The notes beneath the pieces are model-generated. The model saw nothing but the letters and a program-made list of their open reading frames with translations. It was not told where the DNA came from and did no database searches. Below are positions 6,006-42,522 of a stretch of DNA of 42,522 nucleotides, one piece after another; within the stretch, counting starts at the first letter, position 1, and the number at the start of each line of letters is the position of its first letter. This stretch comes from a virus. Position numbers and translations under genes: made by a program. Location of the stretch: IMG/VR virus record IMGVR_UViG_3300034355_000787, positions 1 to 42,522 of that record. One strand, given 5' to 3'.

Positions 6006-6338
6006 TTAGATTGCCTGTTTATTTAATGCGCCGGAGCCATTCAGTGCCGGAGGCGGTGGAGAAATTGGATCGCTTTTTAATAGCACATTAATAATATCAT
6101 CTTTTGTAGCTATTTTCGCATCTAAAGCTTTAATTGCGCGCGTATTTTCTTGTGTCGCAGCAATCCCTTCTTTTCCCCCTAATTCAATCCGCATTAAGCA
6201 GTCTAAGATAGACTGCTTAAGCGCCAGACCCTGCTTATAGAGCGGCAATACTTTTTTTAGGCCATATAAGATAACTAGCAATATAGCGTAAATTTCTGGC
6301 TTGCCGCTTAGTAGTGTAGCTAAGTCTATATTTTCCAT
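6006..6338 (-). CDS. Putative holin or lysis-associated membrane protein
   Basis: This 110-residue protein has one hydrophobic segment near residues 14-30 (IYAILLVILYGLKKVL), a helical middle and a Pro-rich C-terminus (PPPPAL). The gene directly precedes the endolysin and follows the tail fibre, the usual place for a holin. The family is not recognised from sequence, so the role rests on position and topology. AGGA precedes the start. Confidence 0.5.
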   Translation of the reverse strand: MENIDLATLLSGKPEIYAILLVILYGLKKVLPLYKQGLALKQSILDCLMRIELGGKEGIAATQENTRAIKALDAKIATKDDIINVLLKSDPISPPPPALNGSGALNKQAI

Positions 6339-34976: not shown

Positions 34977-35317
34977 TGGTTTCTCATCTTTTACCTGGCT
35001 CGCAATATTATCTTGGTTTCTCATCTTGCTTGTGGCTCGCACACTTTTATGGTTTCTCATGCAAGTCTTGGCTCGCAAACTTATCATGGTTTCTCATCAA
35101 TCTCTTGGCTCGCAATCATGCACTGGTTTCTCATTCTTTGTGTGGCTCGCAAACTTATCGTGGTTTCTCATCCTGTGATTGGCTCGCAAAGTTTTAATGG
35201 TTTCTCATTATCTGTATGGCTCGCATTGCTGTTGTGGTTTCTCACTCCTAATTTGGCTCGCATTTTTTATCTGGTTCCTCAAGGCTACGTTGGCTCGCAA
35301 ATGTTTATGGTTTCTCA
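34977..35317 (-). repeat. Alternating two-motif array, period 37 bp
   Basis: Ten copies of motif A (plus strand TGGTTTCTCA, one copy TGGTTCCTCA) alternate strictly with nine copies of motif B (TGGCTCGCA). Between them are unique spacers of 9 bases (two of 8). A starts at 34977, 35014, 35050, 35087, 35124, 35161, 35198, 35235, 35272 and 35308; B starts at 34996, 35033, 35069, 35106, 35143, 35180, 35217, 35254 and 35291. On the minus strand, the direction of local transcription, they read TGAGAAACCA and TGCGAGCCA. The rightmost A contains the stop codon of the IS110-type gene. It is not a CRISPR: the repeats are too short and of two kinds. A function as iterons, protein-binding array or RNA array is open. 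Confidence 0.9.
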
Positions 35318-36133
35318 TTTCTCTTTTGGCTTAATCTCATGCGCATGACCCAATATCGCTATAGCATATGGTTTTGGGGGTGTTATACCTTTTATCCTTA
35401 GCGACATCTCCCAAAAATGCGATAAAAATATTTTAGCTGCATATCGCTCCGCCATTGCTTGTATATGTGCCGGCGGTAATTTACCTGCGCTATAATGCTT
35501 AAATGCGTCCGTATCTTTGCTATATTTTTTGTCTATTAAACATTGTGCCGCGCGGCCGGCATAGTCCCCGTTTTCGTTTTTAGCTACGTAATATGACTTT
35601 TTTTCTCTGTACAAATGCCCATACAATGCCGCCTCATTCCCGGATACTTTAACAAAAGATTGACCGATAAGCCATGCTAAACGTTTAAGGCTGCTTGACC
35701 AATTCGATTTTTCGCCTCGCTTACGCTTTTGGCCCGGTACGAGTCCGCAATATGACCACAGGTCGCCGCAAGACGCAAAACGCGTCGCATCACCTATATT
35801 CGCGCATAATCCGGCCGATAGCACGGGCCCAATTCCCACATTGGATTTAGCCCACGCACCTGCAGGTTCTTGGTCTGTGTATTTATCCAAAGCGCGCTTA
35901 ATCTGACTTTCTAATGTTTCCGACTGCTCGGCAGCCCAGTTAATAACGCTATGTGGCTCCTCCGTCTCGTTTAGCGCCCGCACTTGTCCATAGCTTCTGA
36001 TACGATTGTCTTGCATTTGATAATACAAGTCTACAAGATAACGCGCTTCTTTGTGTGACAAAGTTTTAGACGCATTAGCTAAATCTCGAGTCAGCTTAAT
36101 AACCGGCTCTAATCCAATTTCGAATTCTAACAT
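35315..36133 (-). CDS. Lone IS110-type C-terminal (Transposase_20) domain protein
   Basis: This 272-residue protein has a charged helical N-terminus and a Transposase_20-like domain at about 97-165: VGIGPVLSAGLCANIGD, then FASCGDLWSYCGLVPGQ and LKRLAWLIGQ. In IS110 transposases this domain follows an N-terminal DEDD RuvC-like nuclease; that nuclease is missing here. The segment that usually carries the catalytic Ser is basic (GQKRKRGEKSNWSSS) and not clearly conserved. It may be a DNA- or RNA-binding relative without recombinase activity. It lies between the replication-type gene and the 37-bp array, and its stop codon is inside the array. Confidence 0.75.
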   Translation of the reverse strand: MLEFEIGLEPVIKLTRDLANASKTLSHKEARYLVDLYYQMQDNRIRSYGQVRALNETEEPHSVINWAAEQSETLESQIKRALDKYTDQEPAGAWAKSNVGIGPVLSAGLCANIGDATRFASCGDLWSYCGLVPGQKRKRGEKSNWSSSLKRLAWLIGQSFVKVSGNEAALYGHLYREKKSYYVAKNENGDYAGRAAQCLIDKKYSKDTDAFKHYSAGKLPPAHIQAMAERYAAKIFLSHFWEMSLRIKGITPPKPYAIAILGHAHEIKPKEK

Positions 36134-36358
36134 TTATTCCCCTTTAATTTTTATACCCAGAAATTTTGCCATAACATCCTCATGGCCCGAAAACTCTTTT
36201 GCGCCTGCCTCAATAATTACATGCAGCTTGCTCTGTATAATCGGGTTTGTATAACGGCTTTTAGCAACCGGTATCGGGGGTGGTTTAAACGCCGCCGCAG
36301 CCATTTTCCCTCGCGCTCCAAAACCAAAATCATCGTCATCATGTTGCCAAGCCATCAT
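36134..36358 (-). CDS. Small protein between the replication-type and IS110-type genes
   Basis: This 74-residue protein starts MMAWQHDDDDFGFGARG and continues AAAFKPPPIPVAKSRY. It overlaps the stop of the upstream gene (GGGGGTGCATGATGA), so either of the first two ATGs may be used. The acidic patch and Pro-rich linker suggest an adaptor for a replication complex, but no family is recognised. It is one base from the start of the IS110-type gene. Confidence 0.55.
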   Translation of the reverse strand: MMAWQHDDDDFGFGARGKMAAAAFKPPPIPVAKSRYTNPIIQSKLHVIIEAGAKEFSGHEDVMAKFLGIKIKGE

Positions 36359-37623
36359 GCACCCCCGTATCTCGCTATCTCCCAGCGTCGCTGTAAATCC
36401 TCAAGCTTGCGCCTGCGCTCTGCATCTTGCACATCAACCTCAATGGCCGCAGGGGGCTCATAAACGGCATCAGGGACGTCAATACCAAGTTCTGGCGGTA
36501 TCTCTCCCCGAGCCTGCAAGCGGGCCAGCTGTGCGCCTGATTTTAGCTCGTAATGCTTCTTCTCACGCGCCTTAAGCTGCAAGTAGCCGTCTTTGCATTC
36601 ATCGCTGTACTTTTCATAACCAAACGGCATGCGCCACCCCCCAGATCGGATTAAAAGCATGAATCTATTCACAGCATGCTTAAAATTCTGCGTGCCTTGC
36701 CGATGTTCTGGGGTTGATAAGGCAAAATGTACTTGTGACCACAGCGTTTTGATATCGCCCACAGCCACTTTTGCTTTCAAAACTGTCCGCTCAACCGCGG
36801 CTTTTGCATATGCTAATTGTCTTTTGTTCAATTTAGATTCATCTTGATTAAAATTAACATCACCCCCGGTATTTTCTAAATAATCTACATTATTTGTATT
36901 ATTATTTATAATTTCTACCGTATTAATATCTCTATTATTAATGGATGTGGTCAAAATCGTCCGTTTATGCGATTTAATAGTTTCTTTTTTATGCTTTGCT
37001 TCATGCTCTATCCTCTCCCATTCCGCCATCAATTCATCATACTTTGCACTATTTATGGTCACATAGTGTCTTAGATGCCTGGGCGTTCTAACGATCAACC
37101 CTTTTTGCTCTAAAGCAATTACGATTGCATACGCCCCCTTCAGCGTCAGCCCTAATAAATTAGCCAGCTCTAGCTTAGGCACACTACACCATCCTTTCTG
37201 AGCGTTAGGTTTCCCTAGCGAAATCATATAAGCAAAATAAGAAAGTGCTACGCTCGCCTTGTTGCCGCCTGTGTAACTGTTCAAAAATTGTAACTTTCTT
37301 ATGTTAACGCTAAATTTTATATCTTCTTTACACCGAACAAACATTCGCTTCTTTCCGTACCACATGCCGAGCACCGTTTGTATTAATGACATACTCTTAA
37401 GTTGCTCCAACTTTCTATCAATGCTCTTTAAGCTACAGTTCAGATAATTGGCTAATTGCCGCCTAGTCCTTGCTATAACCCTGTCCGCACCTCTGACTAT
37501 TTTAGTATTGCTTACTTGATACTTAATAGCGCCGAAAAGAAGACTAGCGTCTATATCCCCGACCACGTCATTGACTACAGCTAACTGTTTAAAATTCACA
37601 AAACAAAATCCCTGAAAACTCAT
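36355..37623 (-). CDS. Winged-helix replication-initiator-type protein
   Basis: This 422-residue protein has two winged-helix-like segments: RTRRQLANYLNCSLKSIDRK (about 51-70) and SVPKLELANLLGLTLKGAYA (about 146-165). The second is followed by a wing with VRTPRHLRHYVTI. A polar Asn-rich linker and a helical C-terminal half follow. The architecture resembles plasmid and phage replication initiators (RepA or O-like), but I cannot name a family. GGGAG precedes the ATG. It heads the leftward replication segment. Confidence 0.6.
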   Translation of the reverse strand: MSFQGFCFVNFKQLAVVNDVVGDIDASLLFGAIKYQVSNTKIVRGADRVIARTRRQLANYLNCSLKSIDRKLEQLKSMSLIQTVLGMWYGKKRMFVRCKEDIKFSVNIRKLQFLNSYTGGNKASVALSYFAYMISLGKPNAQKGWCSVPKLELANLLGLTLKGAYAIVIALEQKGLIVRTPRHLRHYVTINSAKYDELMAEWERIEHEAKHKKETIKSHKRTILTTSINNRDINTVEIINNNTNNVDYLENTGGDVNFNQDESKLNKRQLAYAKAAVERTVLKAKVAVGDIKTLWSQVHFALSTPEHRQGTQNFKHAVNRFMLLIRSGGWRMPFGYEKYSDECKDGYLQLKAREKKHYELKSGAQLARLQARGEIPPELGIDVPDAVYEPPAAIEVDVQDAERRRKLEDLQRRWEIARYGGA

Positions 37624-38583: not shown

Positions 38584-39492
38584 ATGAGTAATAATGAGAT
38601 GACTGTGGTAAAGATTAACTCTTTATCAGAATTGGAAAAGATAGCAAATAGCATGGTTAAATCCAGGTTGTTTGGGGTAGAAAACTTTGACCAAGCCTTT
38701 TCGTTGATGATGATAGCAAATGCCCGTGGCATACATCCGGTTAAAGCTGCGATGGACTATCATGTCATTCAGGGTAGGCCCGCGCTTAAAGCGGACGCTA
38801 TGCTGGGGTACTTTCAGGAGTCCGGCGGTATTGTGCAGTGGAAAGTATATACTGATGCATGTGTTGTTGGGCTGTTTTCTCACCCCCGCTCTGGTCAAAC
38901 TGAGCCGGTGGCGATAGAATGGACTATCGAAATGGCCTCTAAAATTATGACCTATGAAAAAGGTAAGCAAATACCCTTATCTAATAAACAAGTTTGGAAA
39001 GATTACCCTCGGGCTATGTTGCGGTCTCGATGTATCAGCGAAGGTGTGCGTACTGTGTATCCTGGGATTGTTGGTGGTTTCTATACGGAAGAAGAGGTGT
39101 CTACCATAACGGAAAACGAAAGATTTAATAATGCCAAATCTGTAGTTTCGATTCAGCATCAAAAGTCTGAAAGAACTGTTATTCCAAGTGTTGATACTAC
39201 TAATGCGGAACCTTCTGTTAGTGATTTAGAGGATGAAACAAGAAGAAACATTTTGATTCAGTTCACAAGAGAGGCGGAGCCTATCCGTGATGAATATAGA
39301 ATGATGGACGCTGACGAGGGGTGCAATGGCAATGACTGGGTAGCTATCCATGACAAACTTATGTCTAATTGGCTAAATCTTTGCGATAGATATAAAAAAG
39401 AATACGAATGGTTTGTTGTACCGCAGAAATGGCAGGATGGGATGAGCAAAATGTTCGGGATTGAAGAAATAAAGGAGTTAATAAATGCATGA
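38584..39492 (+). CDS. recT: RecT-family single-strand annealing protein
   Basis: This 302-residue protein shows the RecT/Red-beta pattern: FDQAFSLMMIANARGIHPVK (about 37-56), YHVIQGRPALKADAMLGYFQ (64-83), then KDYPRAMLRSRCISEGVRTVYPG. It anneals complementary single strands in phage recombination. AAGGAG precedes the ATG. The usual YqaJ or Exo partner is not seen; the VRR-NUC nuclease and SSB are the other recombination proteins here. It overlaps the CsrA-like gene by 8 bases. Confidence 0.85.
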   Translation: MSNNEMTVVKINSLSELEKIANSMVKSRLFGVENFDQAFSLMMIANARGIHPVKAAMDYHVIQGRPALKADAMLGYFQESGGIVQWKVYTDACVVGLFSHPRSGQTEPVAIEWTIEMASKIMTYEKGKQIPLSNKQVWKDYPRAMLRSRCISEGVRTVYPGIVGGFYTEEEVSTITENERFNNAKSVVSIQHQKSERTVIPSVDTTNAEPSVSDLEDETRRNILIQFTREAEPIRDEYRMMDADEGCNGNDWVAIHDKLMSNWLNLCDRYKKEYEWFVVPQKWQDGMSKMFGIEEIKELINA

Positions 39493-39796
39493 GATGAAAA
39501 AGGTTTTGGGTAACCTGGTGTTAACTAGAGGAATTGGCCAAAGCATTATGATTGGTGATGAGATCGAAATTATGATCGGCAAATTTAACGGCAGTCAAGT
39601 AGTAATTGCTATTAATGCCCCAAAGCACATTGTTGTGCATCGCAAAGAGGTGTGGGAAAGAATTAAGGCTCAACAAAATGCTCGACAACATGACTGTGCT
39701 GATCATGCAGAATATCATATCGGGCGAGTTGGGGTGCGCATAGCGACTTGTGAAATGTGCGGATCAAGATGGAGTCCCGACGAGGATGAAGAGTAA
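39485..39796 (+). CDS. CsrA-like RNA-binding protein with zinc-type C-terminal extension
   Basis: This 103-residue protein has a full CsrA domain at residues 11-63: LVLTRGIGQSIMIGDEIEI, GSQVVIAINAPKHIVVHRKE, VWERI. Residues equivalent to E. coli CsrA Leu4 (Leu13) and Arg44 (Arg53), which contact GGA-loop RNA, are present. The C-terminal 40 residues carry C71, H74, H78, C89 and C92, a likely zinc site absent from standard 60-residue CsrA. CsrA blocks or stabilises mRNAs by binding GGA at ribosome sites, so a phage copy may rewire host or phage translation. AAGGAG precedes the ATG. Confidence 0.85.
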   Translation: MHEMKKVLGNLVLTRGIGQSIMIGDEIEIMIGKFNGSQVVIAINAPKHIVVHRKEVWERIKAQQNARQHDCADHAEYHIGRVGVRIATCEMCGSRWSPDEDEE

Positions 39797-40041: not shown

Positions 40042-40287
40042 ATGCAATTTGAATGTAAAGAAACAATTAATGAACAGCCGGATATTCTACAAGAATTTTT
40101 AGAGTATAGGGAATCAGCAAAATTACTCAATATGGATCTGCCTATACGCTATGAATCTATTCCGCCGACCCGAAAATCAAAGTATAGTATAGCCGAATGC
40201 TCGCACTGCAAAGGATTAAATGCATTTGAAAATCCATTGCCAAAAAATTGTTGTCGTGTATGCGACTGGTGCGAAAGAGAGTTTTAA
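40042..40287 (+). CDS. Cys-rich small protein
   Basis: This 81-residue protein ends in a zinc-type cluster: CSHCKGLNAFENP, then CCRVCDWCEREF. The first half is helical and acidic. AGGA lies about 11 bases upstream. Function unknown; it precedes the first Gly-rich cassette. Confidence 0.55.
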   Translation: MQFECKETINEQPDILQEFLEYRESAKLLNMDLPIRYESIPPTRKSKYSIAECSHCKGLNAFENPLPKNCCRVCDWCEREF

Positions 40288-40302
40288 AAAGAGAGTTTTA
40301 AG

Positions 40303-40614
40303 ATGAATAATTTTTGCAAAGTGTTTGGGAAAAGAATTGGCTCGGGCGCGGGCTATGGCTATGGCTCCGGCGACGGCTATAGCTATGGGTCCGGCGACGG
40401 CTCCGGCGATGGCTCAGGCTCCGGCTACAGCTATGGCGCCGGCTCCGGCGATGGCGATTGCTCCAGCTTGGGCTCCGGCGACGGCGATGGCGATGGGTCC
40501 GGCTGGGGCAAAGGCTATGGCGCGGGCGCTGGCTCCAGCTTGGGCTCCGGCCACGGCGCGGGCAACGGCGATGGCTCGGGCTATGGCTCAGACGATGGAT
40601 CCGGCCATGGATAA
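40303..40614 (+). CDS. Gly-X repeat protein, copy 1
   Basis: This 103-residue protein starts MNNFCKVFGKRIGSG and then alternates Gly with S, D, Y, A, W, N, C, K, L or H to the end (GSGHG). The head sequence recurs in four other genes at 41039, 41280, 41809 and 42176, which fixes the true frame although the other frames are also open. The DNA is an about hexameric GGC-NNN repeat, far GC-richer than the genome. Function unknown: Gly-rich alternation suggests flexible or condensate-forming protein, but this is inference. Confidence 0.65.
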   Translation: MNNFCKVFGKRIGSGAGYGYGSGDGYSYGSGDGSGDGSGSGYSYGAGSGDGDCSSLGSGDGDGDGSGWGKGYGAGAGSSLGSGHGAGNGDGSGYGSDDGSGHG

Positions 40615-40644
40615 GTGTGTTTTTATTAACAATTGGAGACAGAA

Positions 40645-41046
40645 ATGAAAGAAAATGAAATAGTAATTAATGGCGTAAAATATATAAAGCAAAATCAAGA
40701 GTTGACTGCAAATAGTATATACTCAAATTTTATAGGCGAGTATTGCATTGTTCGCAGCTATGGCGCTGGTGTGTTTTTTGGCGTGCTAAATGCAGTCGAA
40801 GATAACTATGCAGCTATATTATCGGACGCTAGACGCATACATTATTGGGATGATCATACAGCGGCGGCATGTACAGATTTAGCTTTATATGGCATCACCG
40901 AAAAGTCTAATTCGAGCAAAAGCAGCCGCGTTTGTGCAGCTGTCGACAACCAAGTTTTAATGCAAGTTATAGAAATTATCCCGTGTTCAAAAACAGCAAT
41001 TAACTGCCTGAGAAATTTTAGAGTTTGGACAGAAGGCCGTGAATAA
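40645..41046 (+). CDS. DUF6948-type protein
   Basis: This 133-residue protein contains GEYCIVRSYGAGVFFGVL (about 31-48), ILSDARRIHYWDD (63-75) and a C-terminal IEIIPCSKTAINCL, the pattern of a widespread small phage protein family (DUF6948) of unknown function. GGAG lies 6 bases before the ATG at 40645. It sits between Gly-X copies 1 and 2 and its end overlaps the GTG of copy 2. Confidence 0.75.
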   Translation: MKENEIVINGVKYIKQNQELTANSIYSNFIGEYCIVRSYGAGVFFGVLNAVEDNYAAILSDARRIHYWDDHTAAACTDLALYGITEKSNSSKSSRVCAAVDNQVLMQVIEIIPCSKTAINCLRNFRVWTEGRE

Positions 41047-41272
41047 TTTTTGCAAAGTGTTTGGCAAAAACATTGGCTATGGCTCGGGATCGGGCTGGGG
41101 CTCGGGCGCGGGCGATGGCTCCGGCTATGGCGCCGGCTATGGCTATGGCTCGGGCGCGGGCAAAGGCTCGGGCGACGGCTCGGGCTATGGCTCGGGCTAT
41201 GGCTCGGGATCGGGCTGGGGCTCGGGCGCGGGCGATGGCTCCGGCTCCGGCGATGGCTCCGGCCATGGATAA
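41039..41272 (+). CDS. Gly-X repeat protein, copy 2
   Basis: This 77-residue protein starts at GTG with VNNFCKVFGKNIGYG and continues as Gly-X repeats to GSGHG. The GTG lies in GAAGGCCGTGAA, a context repeated before copies 3 and 5. The start overlaps the DUF6948 stop by 8 bases. Segments of this copy are repeated within itself (GDGSGYG and GSGSGWGSGAG blocks), indicating internal duplication. Confidence 0.6.
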   Translation: MNNFCKVFGKNIGYGSGSGWGSGAGDGSGYGAGYGYGSGAGKGSGDGSGYGSGYGSGSGWGSGAGDGSGSGDGSGHG

Positions 41273-41279
41273 GAAGGCC

Positions 41280-41345
41280 GTGAATAATTTTTGCAAAGTG
41301 TTTGGGAGAGAAATTGGATCCGCCCCCAGATGGGGCGAAAATTAA
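41280..41345 (+). CDS. Truncated Gly-X cassette, copy 3 (head only, 21 aa)
   Basis: The same GTG context starts VNNFCKVFGREIGSAPRWGEN, then TAA. The head module is intact but the repeat is missing. Either it is a decayed copy or it shows that the head alone is kept as a unit. It starts 7 bases after the stop of copy 2. Confidence 0.45.
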   Translation: MNNFCKVFGREIGSAPRWGEN

Positions 41346-41367
41346 AGTAAAAAATTAAGGGGAAAAA

Positions 41368-41793
41368 ATGTCTGGCGTAAATAAAGCAATTTTATTGGGC
41401 AACATCGGGAAAGACCCCGAAATAAGGACTTTTCAAGACGGCGATCGAGTTGCTAACTTTAGCTTAGCGACATCGACCAAATGGAAGGATAAAGTTACGG
41501 GTGAGCAAAAAGAAGCGGTGGAATGGCACAATATAAGCGCTTTTGGTAAATTGGCTGCTATCTGCGAGCAATACCTTAATAAAGGTGACAAAGTATATAT
41601 TGAGGGTCATATAAAAACTGAAAAATATACCGATAAAGAAGGCGTTGTTAGATATAGCACTAAAATTATTATGGACAATATGCAAATGCTATCGAGTTTT
41701 AAAGGAGATGTGCGCTCAGATGGGGAAGATTCCACATTGCCGTCAAGCTCTAAGCTTTCCACTAATACCTTTGATGACGATATACCATTTTAG
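41368..41793 (+). CDS. ssb: Single-stranded DNA-binding protein
   Basis: This 141-residue protein has the SSB OB fold: VNKAILLGNIGKDPEIRTF, VANFSLATST, VEWHNISAFGKLA, YLNKGDKVYIEGHIKT, and the acidic tip DDDIPF used to recruit partners. AAGGGG precedes the ATG. It lies between Gly-X copies 3 and 4 and would serve with RecT in replication and recombination. Confidence 0.95.
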   Translation: MSGVNKAILLGNIGKDPEIRTFQDGDRVANFSLATSTKWKDKVTGEQKEAVEWHNISAFGKLAAICEQYLNKGDKVYIEGHIKTEKYTDKEGVVRYSTKIIMDNMQMLSSFKGDVRSDGEDSTLPSSSKLSTNTFDDDIPF

Positions 41794-41808
41794 GGGATGG
41801 AAAAAGAA

Positions 41809-42168
41809 ATGAATAATTTTTGTAAAGTGTTTGGGAAAAGAATTGGCTCTGGCAACTGCGATGGCTCGGGCTACAGCTATGGCGCCGGCGATGGCGATGG
41901 TGCGGGCTTTGGCTGGGGCTCGGGCGATGGCTCGGGCGACGGCTCGGGCTGGGGCGCCGGCGATGGCTATGGCTCCGGCGCGGGCAAAGGCGCGGGCTAT
42001 GGCTATGGCGCGGGCTCGGGCGACGGCTCGGGCTATGGCGCCGGCGATGGCTATGGCTCCGGCGCGGGCAAAGGCGCGGGCTATGGCTCGGGCGCGGGCA
42101 AAGGCGCGGGCTATGGCGCCGGCTATGGCTATGGCTCCGGCTCCGGCGATGGCTCCGGCCATGGATAA
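41809..42168 (+). CDS. Gly-X repeat protein, copy 4
   Basis: This 119-residue protein starts MNNFCKVFGKRIGSG, then GNCDGSGYSYGAG, and alternates Gly-X to GSGHG. GGA lies about 7 bases before this ATG; an ATG 12 bases further up would add MEKE. Its first approximately 80 bases are identical to copy 5, so one arose recently from the other. Internal repeats such as GYGYGAGSGDGSGYG occur. Confidence 0.65.
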   Translation: MNNFCKVFGKRIGSGNCDGSGYSYGAGDGDGAGFGWGSGDGSGDGSGWGAGDGYGSGAGKGAGYGYGAGSGDGSGYGAGDGYGSGAGKGAGYGSGAGKGAGYGAGYGYGSGSGDGSGHG

Positions 42169-42175
42169 GAAGGCC

Positions 42176-42457
42176 GTGAATAATTTTTGTAAAGTGTTTG
42201 GGAAAAGAATTGGCTCTGGCAACTGCGATGGCTCGGGCTACAGCTATGGCGCCGGCGCCGGCGATGGCGATGGTGCGGGCGATGGCGCGGGCAATGGCTC
42301 CGGCCACGGCGCGGGCAACGGCGACGGCTCGGGCAACGGCTCCGGCTACGGCTCGGGCGCCGGATCGGGATCGGGATGGGGCAACGGCTCAGGCTGGGGC
42401 CGGGGCTGGGGCTCGGGCGATGGATCGGGCCATGGCGATGGATCGGGATCGGGCTAA
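42176..42457 (+). CDS. Gly-X repeat protein, copy 5
   Basis: This 93-residue protein starts at GTG (GAAGGCCGTGAA context) with VNNFCKVFGKRIGSG and ends GSGHGDGSGSG. It starts 7 bases after the stop of copy 4. The end extends beyond the GSGHG seen in the other copies. Its 3' end is duplicated at the left edge of the window because the map is circular. Confidence 0.65.
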   Translation: MNNFCKVFGKRIGSGNCDGSGYSYGAGAGDGDGAGDGAGNGSGHGAGNGDGSGNGSGYGSGAGSGSGWGNGSGWGRGWGSGDGSGHGDGSGSG

Positions 42458-42522
42458 TTTAAAAATTTGAATTAGGCATACGGTTATTAAAAATGTTATT
42501 AAAAATAAATTTGGGGTTTAAA
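42396..42522. repeat. 127-bp terminal direct repeat (right copy)
   Basis: Identical to 1-127. It contains the end of Gly-X copy 5, the AT-rich leader, and GGGG as ribosome site of the gene at 128. Removing one copy gives the circular map. Confidence 0.95.

Follow-up and report, generated by a model that had tools for sequence, protein, structure and literature searches.

The described systems closest to the locus analysed here are those Sm, LSm and Hfq proteins whose C-terminal tails are disordered or Gly-rich; in Hfq and in eukaryotic Sm proteins such disordered tails tune binding or concentrate partners. For Hfq, the disordered tail is also treated in PMC6561178. We have analysed a stretch of viral DNA of 42 522 nt (positions 1 to 42 522 of the record IMGVR_UViG_3300034355_000787, hereafter the window), in which five genes with a common protein head, four of them with a long tail of glycine alternating with a second residue (Gly-X), lie around a gene of the family DUF6948 (PF22253). 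We find that a DUF6948 gene followed by a Gly-X gene is a recurrent two-gene phage module, of which the window carries an amplified form. The module is like the Sm/LSm/Hfq proteins in that a predicted small beta-barrel goes together with a low-complexity chain, and natural fusions of the two occur in locus L390 and, in degenerate form, in locus L209. It differs from them in that the tail mostly has a gene of its own, alternates strictly with glycine, bears Tyr and Asp and varies between close relatives, and in that ring formation and RNA binding of DUF6948 are putative.

Three other systems share single traits with the module. The GYGYGY tails of bacterial tyrosine kinases likewise place a Gly-Tyr alternation at the end of a protein, but those tails are of mixed codons, have Tyr as X, are short and terminate long bacterial open reading frames (ORFs). 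Diversity-generating retroelements likewise hold a small variable gene region between constant flanks across phages, whereas the module was without a reverse transcriptase match (10 records), and its variation involves few residues at repeated units as well as changes of length. At contingency (phase-variable) repeat loci the length of a repeat tract also differs between relatives; in contrast, the module has six-base units and no frame switch, and both length and residue order vary. The window gene at 40645–41046 and the module members match DUF6948, which in Pfam is a domain of unknown function, and to which a predicted Sm-like fold and a Gly-X partner are added here. In the literature searched, which left out most subscription papers and all bioRxiv preprints, DUF6948 is named in no paper and the module is described nowhere; as far as we have found, the Sm-like fold and the Gly-X partner of DUF6948 are new.

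The DUF6948–Gly-X module and the array in the window

We define the module as a DUF6948 gene with a Gly-X gene behind it on the same strand, no more than about 600 nt away. This definition takes in the window, where the DUF6948 gene shares its last 8 nt with the second Gly-X copy. Viral contigs scanned for the pattern (GGN KMN)x12 gave at least 120 stretches; the 120 listed comprise 75 with tracts in which X is of the Ser, Tyr, Asp (S/Y/D) type, 44 with other Gly-X repeats (GA, GS, GD) and one (L217) with no qualifying run. Together with L014, the 75 scan loci make 76 S/Y/D records, examined as sets of 50 (49 scan loci and L014) and 26, and DUF6948 is present in 60 of them (41/50 and 19/26). 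In the 44 records with other repeats from the same scan it is present in two, and among relatives by TerL, a comparison that took 50 of 80 TerL loci, in one of 50 (G049), which also bears a tract. In all 42 of the DUF6948 records so compared (41 S/Y/D records and G049) the tract lies downstream on the same strand, at 240 nt or less in 41 and at 763 nt in one; in L390 it is fused in frame to DUF6948. As for the two records with other repeats, L192 has a Ser/Asp tract behind DUF6948. In L209, on the − strand and near 6295 of its reverse complement, DUF6948 continues in frame into a degenerate tail that is Gly-rich and very acidic, possibly a decayed or alternative tail type.

The converse search, by DUF6948 alone, leads to the same arrangement. 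Eighty of the DUF6948 loci it yielded were kept, a set that includes identical phages and whose members are consequently not all independent. A script requiring a run of at least five units, half of them S/Y/D, no more than 600 nt downstream found such a run in 77 of the 80, and a clear Gly-X frame was seen by eye in 78: the run of L462 is due to chance and L440 shows no clear tract close by, just a degenerate Gly-rich stretch at a greater distance, while L435 (with V, F, E and A as well) and L439 (where the tract overlaps the end of the match) do have a Gly-X frame. L435, L456 and L490 are module members with a wider alphabet. The heads differ between phages. Of the 76 loci whose tract could be used, 54 have the ATG nearest to the tract at a point that precedes the DUF6948 stop by exactly 10 nt, a count made from a frame call that shifted some GGG tracts. 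Fifteen phage records were found by DUF6948, the fifteenth being a second phiPLPE entry; the 14 examined (phiPLPE, CV-1-33, IKEMa6-1, seven Ymer-group phages, Setonix, two faecal phages and a Manatee Spring phage) each have a Gly-X frame behind DUF6948, as does a Monoglobus plasmid. The Gly-X gene is easily missed: in phiPLPE (L368, about 1190–1460) its ORF occupies an unannotated gap from phiPLPE_84 to gp83. The gene pair, one member of which is without a function in Pfam, spans hundreds of viral contigs, where 'hundreds' rests on DUF6948 (encoded in at least 552 of 600 candidate viral stretches) and the Gly-X neighbour was checked in the 80 loci.

Two side observations belong here. In L155, L159 and L171 (also L136 and L179), whose records have no DUF6948 match, there are Gly-X genes with heads like LGSVMFxPV; these are perhaps a second Gly-X class with another partner. 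Record G097 has a DUF6948 frame with three in-frame TGA codons (L405) and, in the same record at 23% GC, a GGT tract (L186); it is probably a recoded phage.

In the window, the genes in question are arranged as follows.

40303–40614, + strand: Gly-X copy 1; ATG start, 103 aa, with its own upstream region
40645–41046, + strand: DUF6948 gene; PF22253, E 1.6e-19, predicted Sm/LSm fold
41031–41046, + strand: 16-nt sequence AGAAGGCCGTGAATAA, shared by the DUF6948 end and the copy 2 start region
41039–41272, + strand: Gly-X copy 2; GTG start, 77 aa, overlapping the final 8 nt of DUF6948
41280–41345, + strand: Gly-X copy 3; head only (VNNFCKVFGREIGSAPRWGEN), beginning 7 nt past the copy 2 stop
41368–41793, + strand: SSB; PF00436, E 1.6e-36, sitting between Gly-X copies
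41809–42168, + strand: Gly-X copy 4; ATG start, 119 aa, another in-frame ATG at 41797
42176–42457, + strand: Gly-X copy 5; GTG start, 93 aa, beginning 7 nt past the copy 4 stop
38584–39492, + strand: RecT-like annealing protein, upstream of the Gly-X copies
39485–39796, + strand: CsrA-like regulator; PF02599, E 3.8e-18, upstream of the Gly-X copies

An earlier note, written from the letters of the window, had described five genes with the head NNFCKVFG(K/R)xIG, and this anatomy is confirmed, all five lying on the + strand between 40303 and 42457. The head DNA pattern AATAATTTTTG(C/T)AAAGTGTTTGG has five matches (40306, 41042, 41283, 41812 and 42179) and none on the opposite strand; the reversed pattern has none. 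Copy 3 is indeed a head of 21 aa, and copies 4 and 5 do have an exact stretch in common, which starts at 41810 and 42177 and measures 80 bases or more but fewer than 85. The tail end GSGHG that the note gave to all four tails holds for three of them; copy 5 ends GSGHGDGSGSG instead. The first roughly 80 nt of copy 5 equal copy 4, and its 3' part enters a terminal repeat of the record (see below). We counted 33, 32, 47 and 34 Gly-X units in copies 1, 2, 4 and 5; GGC encodes 144 of the 160 glycines in the tails and 113 of the 288 in 12 other ORFs of the window, and local GC content reaches 0.65, against 0.43 for the window overall. By these counts, this codon bias and this local GC content, the tails exceed what chance would give.

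The shared bases also bear on how the copies arose. The DUF6948 gene ends ...ACA GAA GGC CGT GAA TAA, with the GTG start of copy 2 inside that end, and the 16 bases AGAAGGCCGTGAATAA recur at the start of copies 3 and 5, directly after the stops of copies 2 and 4, respectively; GGATAAGAAGGCCGTGAA is likewise present twice, at 41267 and 42163. Since AGAAGGCC, the first 8 of the 16, is coding in DUF6948 and only a lead-in to the start codon in copies 3 and 5, the latter derive from a copy 2-like gene that carried the DUF6948 end with it. The end so taken along probably serves copies 3 and 5 as a ribosome-binding region. Copy 2 is the canonical module partner and the likely founder type of copies 3 and 5; the shared bases are observed, and from them we infer the order of the duplication events.

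Arrays are found elsewhere too. L163 has five Gly-X genes (1693–2960) with constant head and tail DNA and different insides, L478 has four copies with MERI heads, and L482 has at least three with fixed head and end; across the 80 DUF6948 loci, two or more Gly-X ORFs of at least 10 units occur in seven, one in 66 and none in seven. The array in the window is an instance of this recurring amplification. In L163, identical joints of about 70 nt alternate with different tracts, a layout that recalls repeats and spacers. The suggestion of copy-number and length change by recombination is borne out by the tandem copies in the window, L163, L478 and L482 and by isolate tracts that differ between identical flanks (see below). 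The idea that the copies were inserted like mobile cassettes beside DUF6948 is not supported: Gly-X genes have DUF6948 as their regular partner, and part of its 3' end is present in copies 3 and 5.

The record itself ends in an exact 127-bp repeat (1–127 and 42396–42522), on the strength of which we take the genome to be complete, circular or permuted, with a length of about 42.4 kb. As 127 is a common assembler k-mer length, the record is probably a circular genome opened inside copy 5. Within 40201–42457 no repeat appeared at any tested k-mer length between 85 and 127, so that a long-k-mer assembly could tell the copies apart. Window DNA 1–24 000 had no match when searched against phages, and the window DUF6948, as a single query against viral contigs, found no relative; hence the Gly-X region is not visible in any close relative of the window phage. 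A 6.4-kb contig (L034) has the TerL protein of the window, and the Gly-X pattern is without a match there. The exact head DNA pattern has two matches in viral contigs (L001 and L002), both chance, being an AT-rich coincidence in another gene. The looser pattern VFGxxIGxGxGxG occurs at 26 loci, of which only L014 and L030 have a long S/Y/D Gly-X ORF, and these two have an identical protein over the compared part with a head unlike that of the window. On such sequence comparisons the head motif looks private to the window phage. A window tail as a protein query found no match in viral contigs or phages, as is to be expected from its low complexity.

Predicted fold, translation and variation of the tracts

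DUF6948 is predicted to be a small five-stranded Sm barrel. The window protein scores 70.3 bits against a Pfam cut-off of 27 for PF22253, a family matched by all 62 module members compared. A model of it built with 62 sequences has a predicted local distance difference test score (pLDDT) of 87.2. In a Foldseek search of the PDB with this model, 48 of the best 50 rows were Sm/LSm, snRNP or spliceosomal proteins (best match Lsm3, E 4.8e-4) and the other two were chain C of NatC, which we take to be the Sm-like subunit of that complex. In agreement, the best 50 rows given by VIA-align were all Sm/LSm, snRNP or spliceosome entries, with AF-Sm1 first (Z 9.2, root-mean-square deviation 1.9 over 70 residues). 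Among viral models the nearest were other DUF6948 proteins and, lower down, the Sm-like protein of cyanophage S-CAM3.

The Gly-X frame is most likely translated, since a conserved domain of some 150 aa (FAHGE ... LTGSCxxGR) stands in frame behind the tract at nine loci (L128, L168, L170, L199, L216, L222, L366, L367 and L502), whose sequences are distinct and come from phages or plasmids. The model of this domain has a pLDDT of 91.5; it found no fold match in the PDB (best E 0.4), no match in Pfam and one in PHROG, at E 0.067.

The tracts are restricted in composition and locked in codon use. In 68 tracts from 54 sources (at least 55% S/Y/D, the window and L014 included) X is Ser 715, Tyr 686, Asp 484 and Ala 21 times; in 69 distinct DUF6948-linked tracts of 2,039 units, counted with the S/Y/D frame preferred, it is Ser 827, Tyr 632, Asp 427 and Ala 8 times. 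The median share of the commonest Gly codon in the 69 tracts is 1.00 and that of the commonest third base of X 0.986, compared with 0.57 and 0.67, respectively, in a control of 46 GY tails, themselves short (median 8 units), that end long bacterial ORFs. These control tails, presumably of tyrosine kinases, came from a genome-contig scan for S/Y and Y/D alternation (at least 120 rows, mostly GY tails) that says little on prophages. The locked Gly codon differs by phage, being GGC, GGG or GGT, the X codons mostly end in C or T, and the GC content of module loci ranges from 0.23 to 0.73. Silent sites that are near-constant within a tract while X varies may be read as a sign of fast turnover of a few hexamer units.

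Divergence of the tract is most clearly seen between isolates. Ymer and Amona, whose aligned genome blocks are otherwise 92–96% alike, are identical over the 4,057 bp that precede the Gly-X ATG and the 1,707 bp that follow the stop. Within the gene the first 40 and the last 49 bases are also the same in both, and the part between them differs (gene lengths 222 versus 204 nt). Abuela equals Ymer at the locus, and Taid, with one difference in 382 bp of DUF6948, has a Gly-X gene of 258 nt; in Koroua, Pappous, Sabo and Setonix, where DUF6948 is more distant, the gene measures 270, 162, 222 and 252 nt. In L459 and L479 two tract units differ, with two-base changes from GAC to TCC and no change of length. 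When the tracts of isolate pairs were aligned by unit, only Abuela or Ymer with Amona were clearly above shuffles among the pairs shown (z 3.4, shared ends included), and the remaining pairs shown gave z values of −1.7 to 2.0; since alignments are mostly at the level of shuffles, a stepwise path of tract change is not readable from them. The Ymer group are Pectobacterium phages which, according to PMC11445585, were obtained from a sample of organic waste; NextSeq reads were used and metaSPAdes was the assembler. The terms 'glycine', 'recombin' and 'hypervariable' are absent from the main text of that paper. With the Pectobacterium isolates, how fast the tract changes and what it does can be tested in culture.

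Proposed mechanism and alternatives

We tentatively favour, at somewhat less than even odds, an Sm-like nucleic-acid binder coupled to a disordered, fast-recombining Gly-X partner. The window locus would then be the amplified form of a two-gene phage module in which the DUF6948 protein binds RNA or single-stranded DNA and is encoded among early replication and recombination genes. The second gene, starting within or near the DUF6948 stop, would yield a short head and a disordered Gly-X chain, which may act as a separately made low-complexity tail of DUF6948 that tunes its binding or concentrates partners. Length, periodicity and composition of the chain would matter and residue order would not, so that the repeat DNA would be free to recombine by unit shuffling, length change and tandem gene duplication; copy 2 would be the original partner, and copies 3 and 5 would stem from a copy of this kind that brought the final codons of DUF6948 along. 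The role in condensates or nucleic-acid binding that the earlier note proposed for the tails is plausible, though putative. If this reading is true, phages possess an Sm-like factor whose low-complexity tail is detachable and evolves fast, and the tracts are a natural experiment on disordered chains in which composition and spacing are kept and order is scrambled.

Several observations weigh against it. A DUF6948 match is absent in 16 of the 76 S/Y/D records, of which 11 are shorter than 14 kb and five (G052, G065, G067, G077 and G092) have 32–64 kb. The Sm assignment rests on a predicted model; the Z score of its best VIA-align match is slightly above a background of 7 to 8 that is common by chance, and matches by sequence are weak: SM-ATX in 2/62 members (best E 0.0087) and LSM in 1/62 (E 0.17), beside the phage tail ring family CrAss_Ring_3_4 in 4/62 (best E 0.011), while the best PDB sequence match of the window DUF6948 is a ribosomal protein at E 0.34. 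Nor do tracts always diverge: L184 and L414–L418 are identical over the compared stretches, as are L420 and L421; L442 and L443 differ in DUF6948 and have the same compared tract, and L450 and L453 differ only upstream. Short reads and metaSPAdes assembly leave room for mis-assembly of the isolate repeats. Finally, X in the window tails is also Ala, Lys, Trp, Asn or His, with mixed third bases, an alphabet wider than the S/Y/D norm, although the GGC lock still holds.

A bolder form of the same idea, which we hold to be unlikely, is that a hypervariable S/Y/D Gly-X polymer is kept deliberately: beside a fixed Sm-like partner, codons would be locked so that recombination rewrites only X, giving a lineage 'barcode' protein. 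Were this true, the protein may keep a replication compartment or ribonucleoprotein apart from those of co-infecting relatives, and the arrays in the window and L163 would hold several variants at once.

It is in our estimate distinctly unlikely that the repeat acts as DNA, a GC-rich hexamer array serving as recombination joint, replication or packaging signal or G-rich structure, with the reading frame as a by-product. Codon locking at synonymous sites is unusual for selection on protein only, recombination genes are among the neighbours, and tracts differ in close relatives. However, GGC, GGG and GGT vary by phage with no common DNA word while the S/Y/D residues are kept; Ala, which the DNA pattern of the scan permits, fills so few of the 2,039 units; the −10 start codon recurs; and the in-frame domain in nine sequences and the in-frame fusion of L390 also speak for a frame that counts.

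With about as little likelihood, X may be actively diversified, the variation itself being selected for self/non-self distinction between co-infecting phages or for escape from recognition. Such a process would fit an X near-free among three residues at locked synonymous sites, the difference of Ymer and Amona in the tract only across more than 5.7 kb, and the two-base changes at unchanged length in L459/L479. Recombinational unit shuffling, however, needs no writer to give this pattern, several contigs have kept identical tracts, and reverse transcriptase (PF00078) was found in 0/10 records including the window, all of which, except for the window and two isolates, may be incomplete.

We consider it quite improbable that the Gly-X proteins are functionless and selfish, a short overlapping ORF behind DUF6948 whose GGC repeats lengthen through slippage and are tolerated. 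Heads that vary by phage, the lost tail of copy 3 and a residue order that is not kept are what one would expect of such growth, but the Gly-X frame seen by eye behind DUF6948 in 78 of the 80 loci, its restricted residues and strict periodicity, its maintenance over the whole GC range of the loci and its fusion to conserved domains are not.

T-even gp38 adhesins carry Gly-rich hypervariable segments, and that the Gly-X proteins are likewise hypervariable adhesin tips is very improbable: they are Gly-rich and variable, and a tail-fibre gene adjoins on the other strand in seven annotated Ymer-group records, but the window genes read as structural (no family scan) lie at about 6–30 kb on the opposite strand, and elsewhere helicase, exonuclease and annealing genes lead the neighbour families.

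Neighbouring genes and other features of the window

Neighbours of the module were scanned as 115 of 256 ORFs from 24 of 41 loci, hand-picked and mostly on the DUF6948 strand, and the top 25 of 118 matched families were considered. The PHROG families most often matched, with three members each, include DnaB-like helicase, RecE, DNA helicase, exonuclease, Erf and endonuclease; resolvase was matched twice and RecT once. In the window the module has RecT, CsrA and SSB as neighbours. These helicase and recombination neighbours, in what is a partial sample, place the module with early nucleic-acid genes.

The PADLOC models of anti-phage defence families matched 0/6 proteins at E 0.01, an NCBIfam scan gave no match, and matches of TrAA12 to the window tails, which are of low complexity and below cut-off, were rejected. 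The CsrA of the window (39485–39796) is a phage CsrA with a Cys-containing C-terminal extension that weakly matches Ribosomal_L37ae, and is likely to be a second RNA-binding protein in the same gene run. At 34977–35331 there are repeats of about 37 nt in which the motifs TGGTTTCTCAT and TGGCTCGCAAA alternate; these are possibly origin iterons, near 36355–37623, which was read as a possible replication gene.

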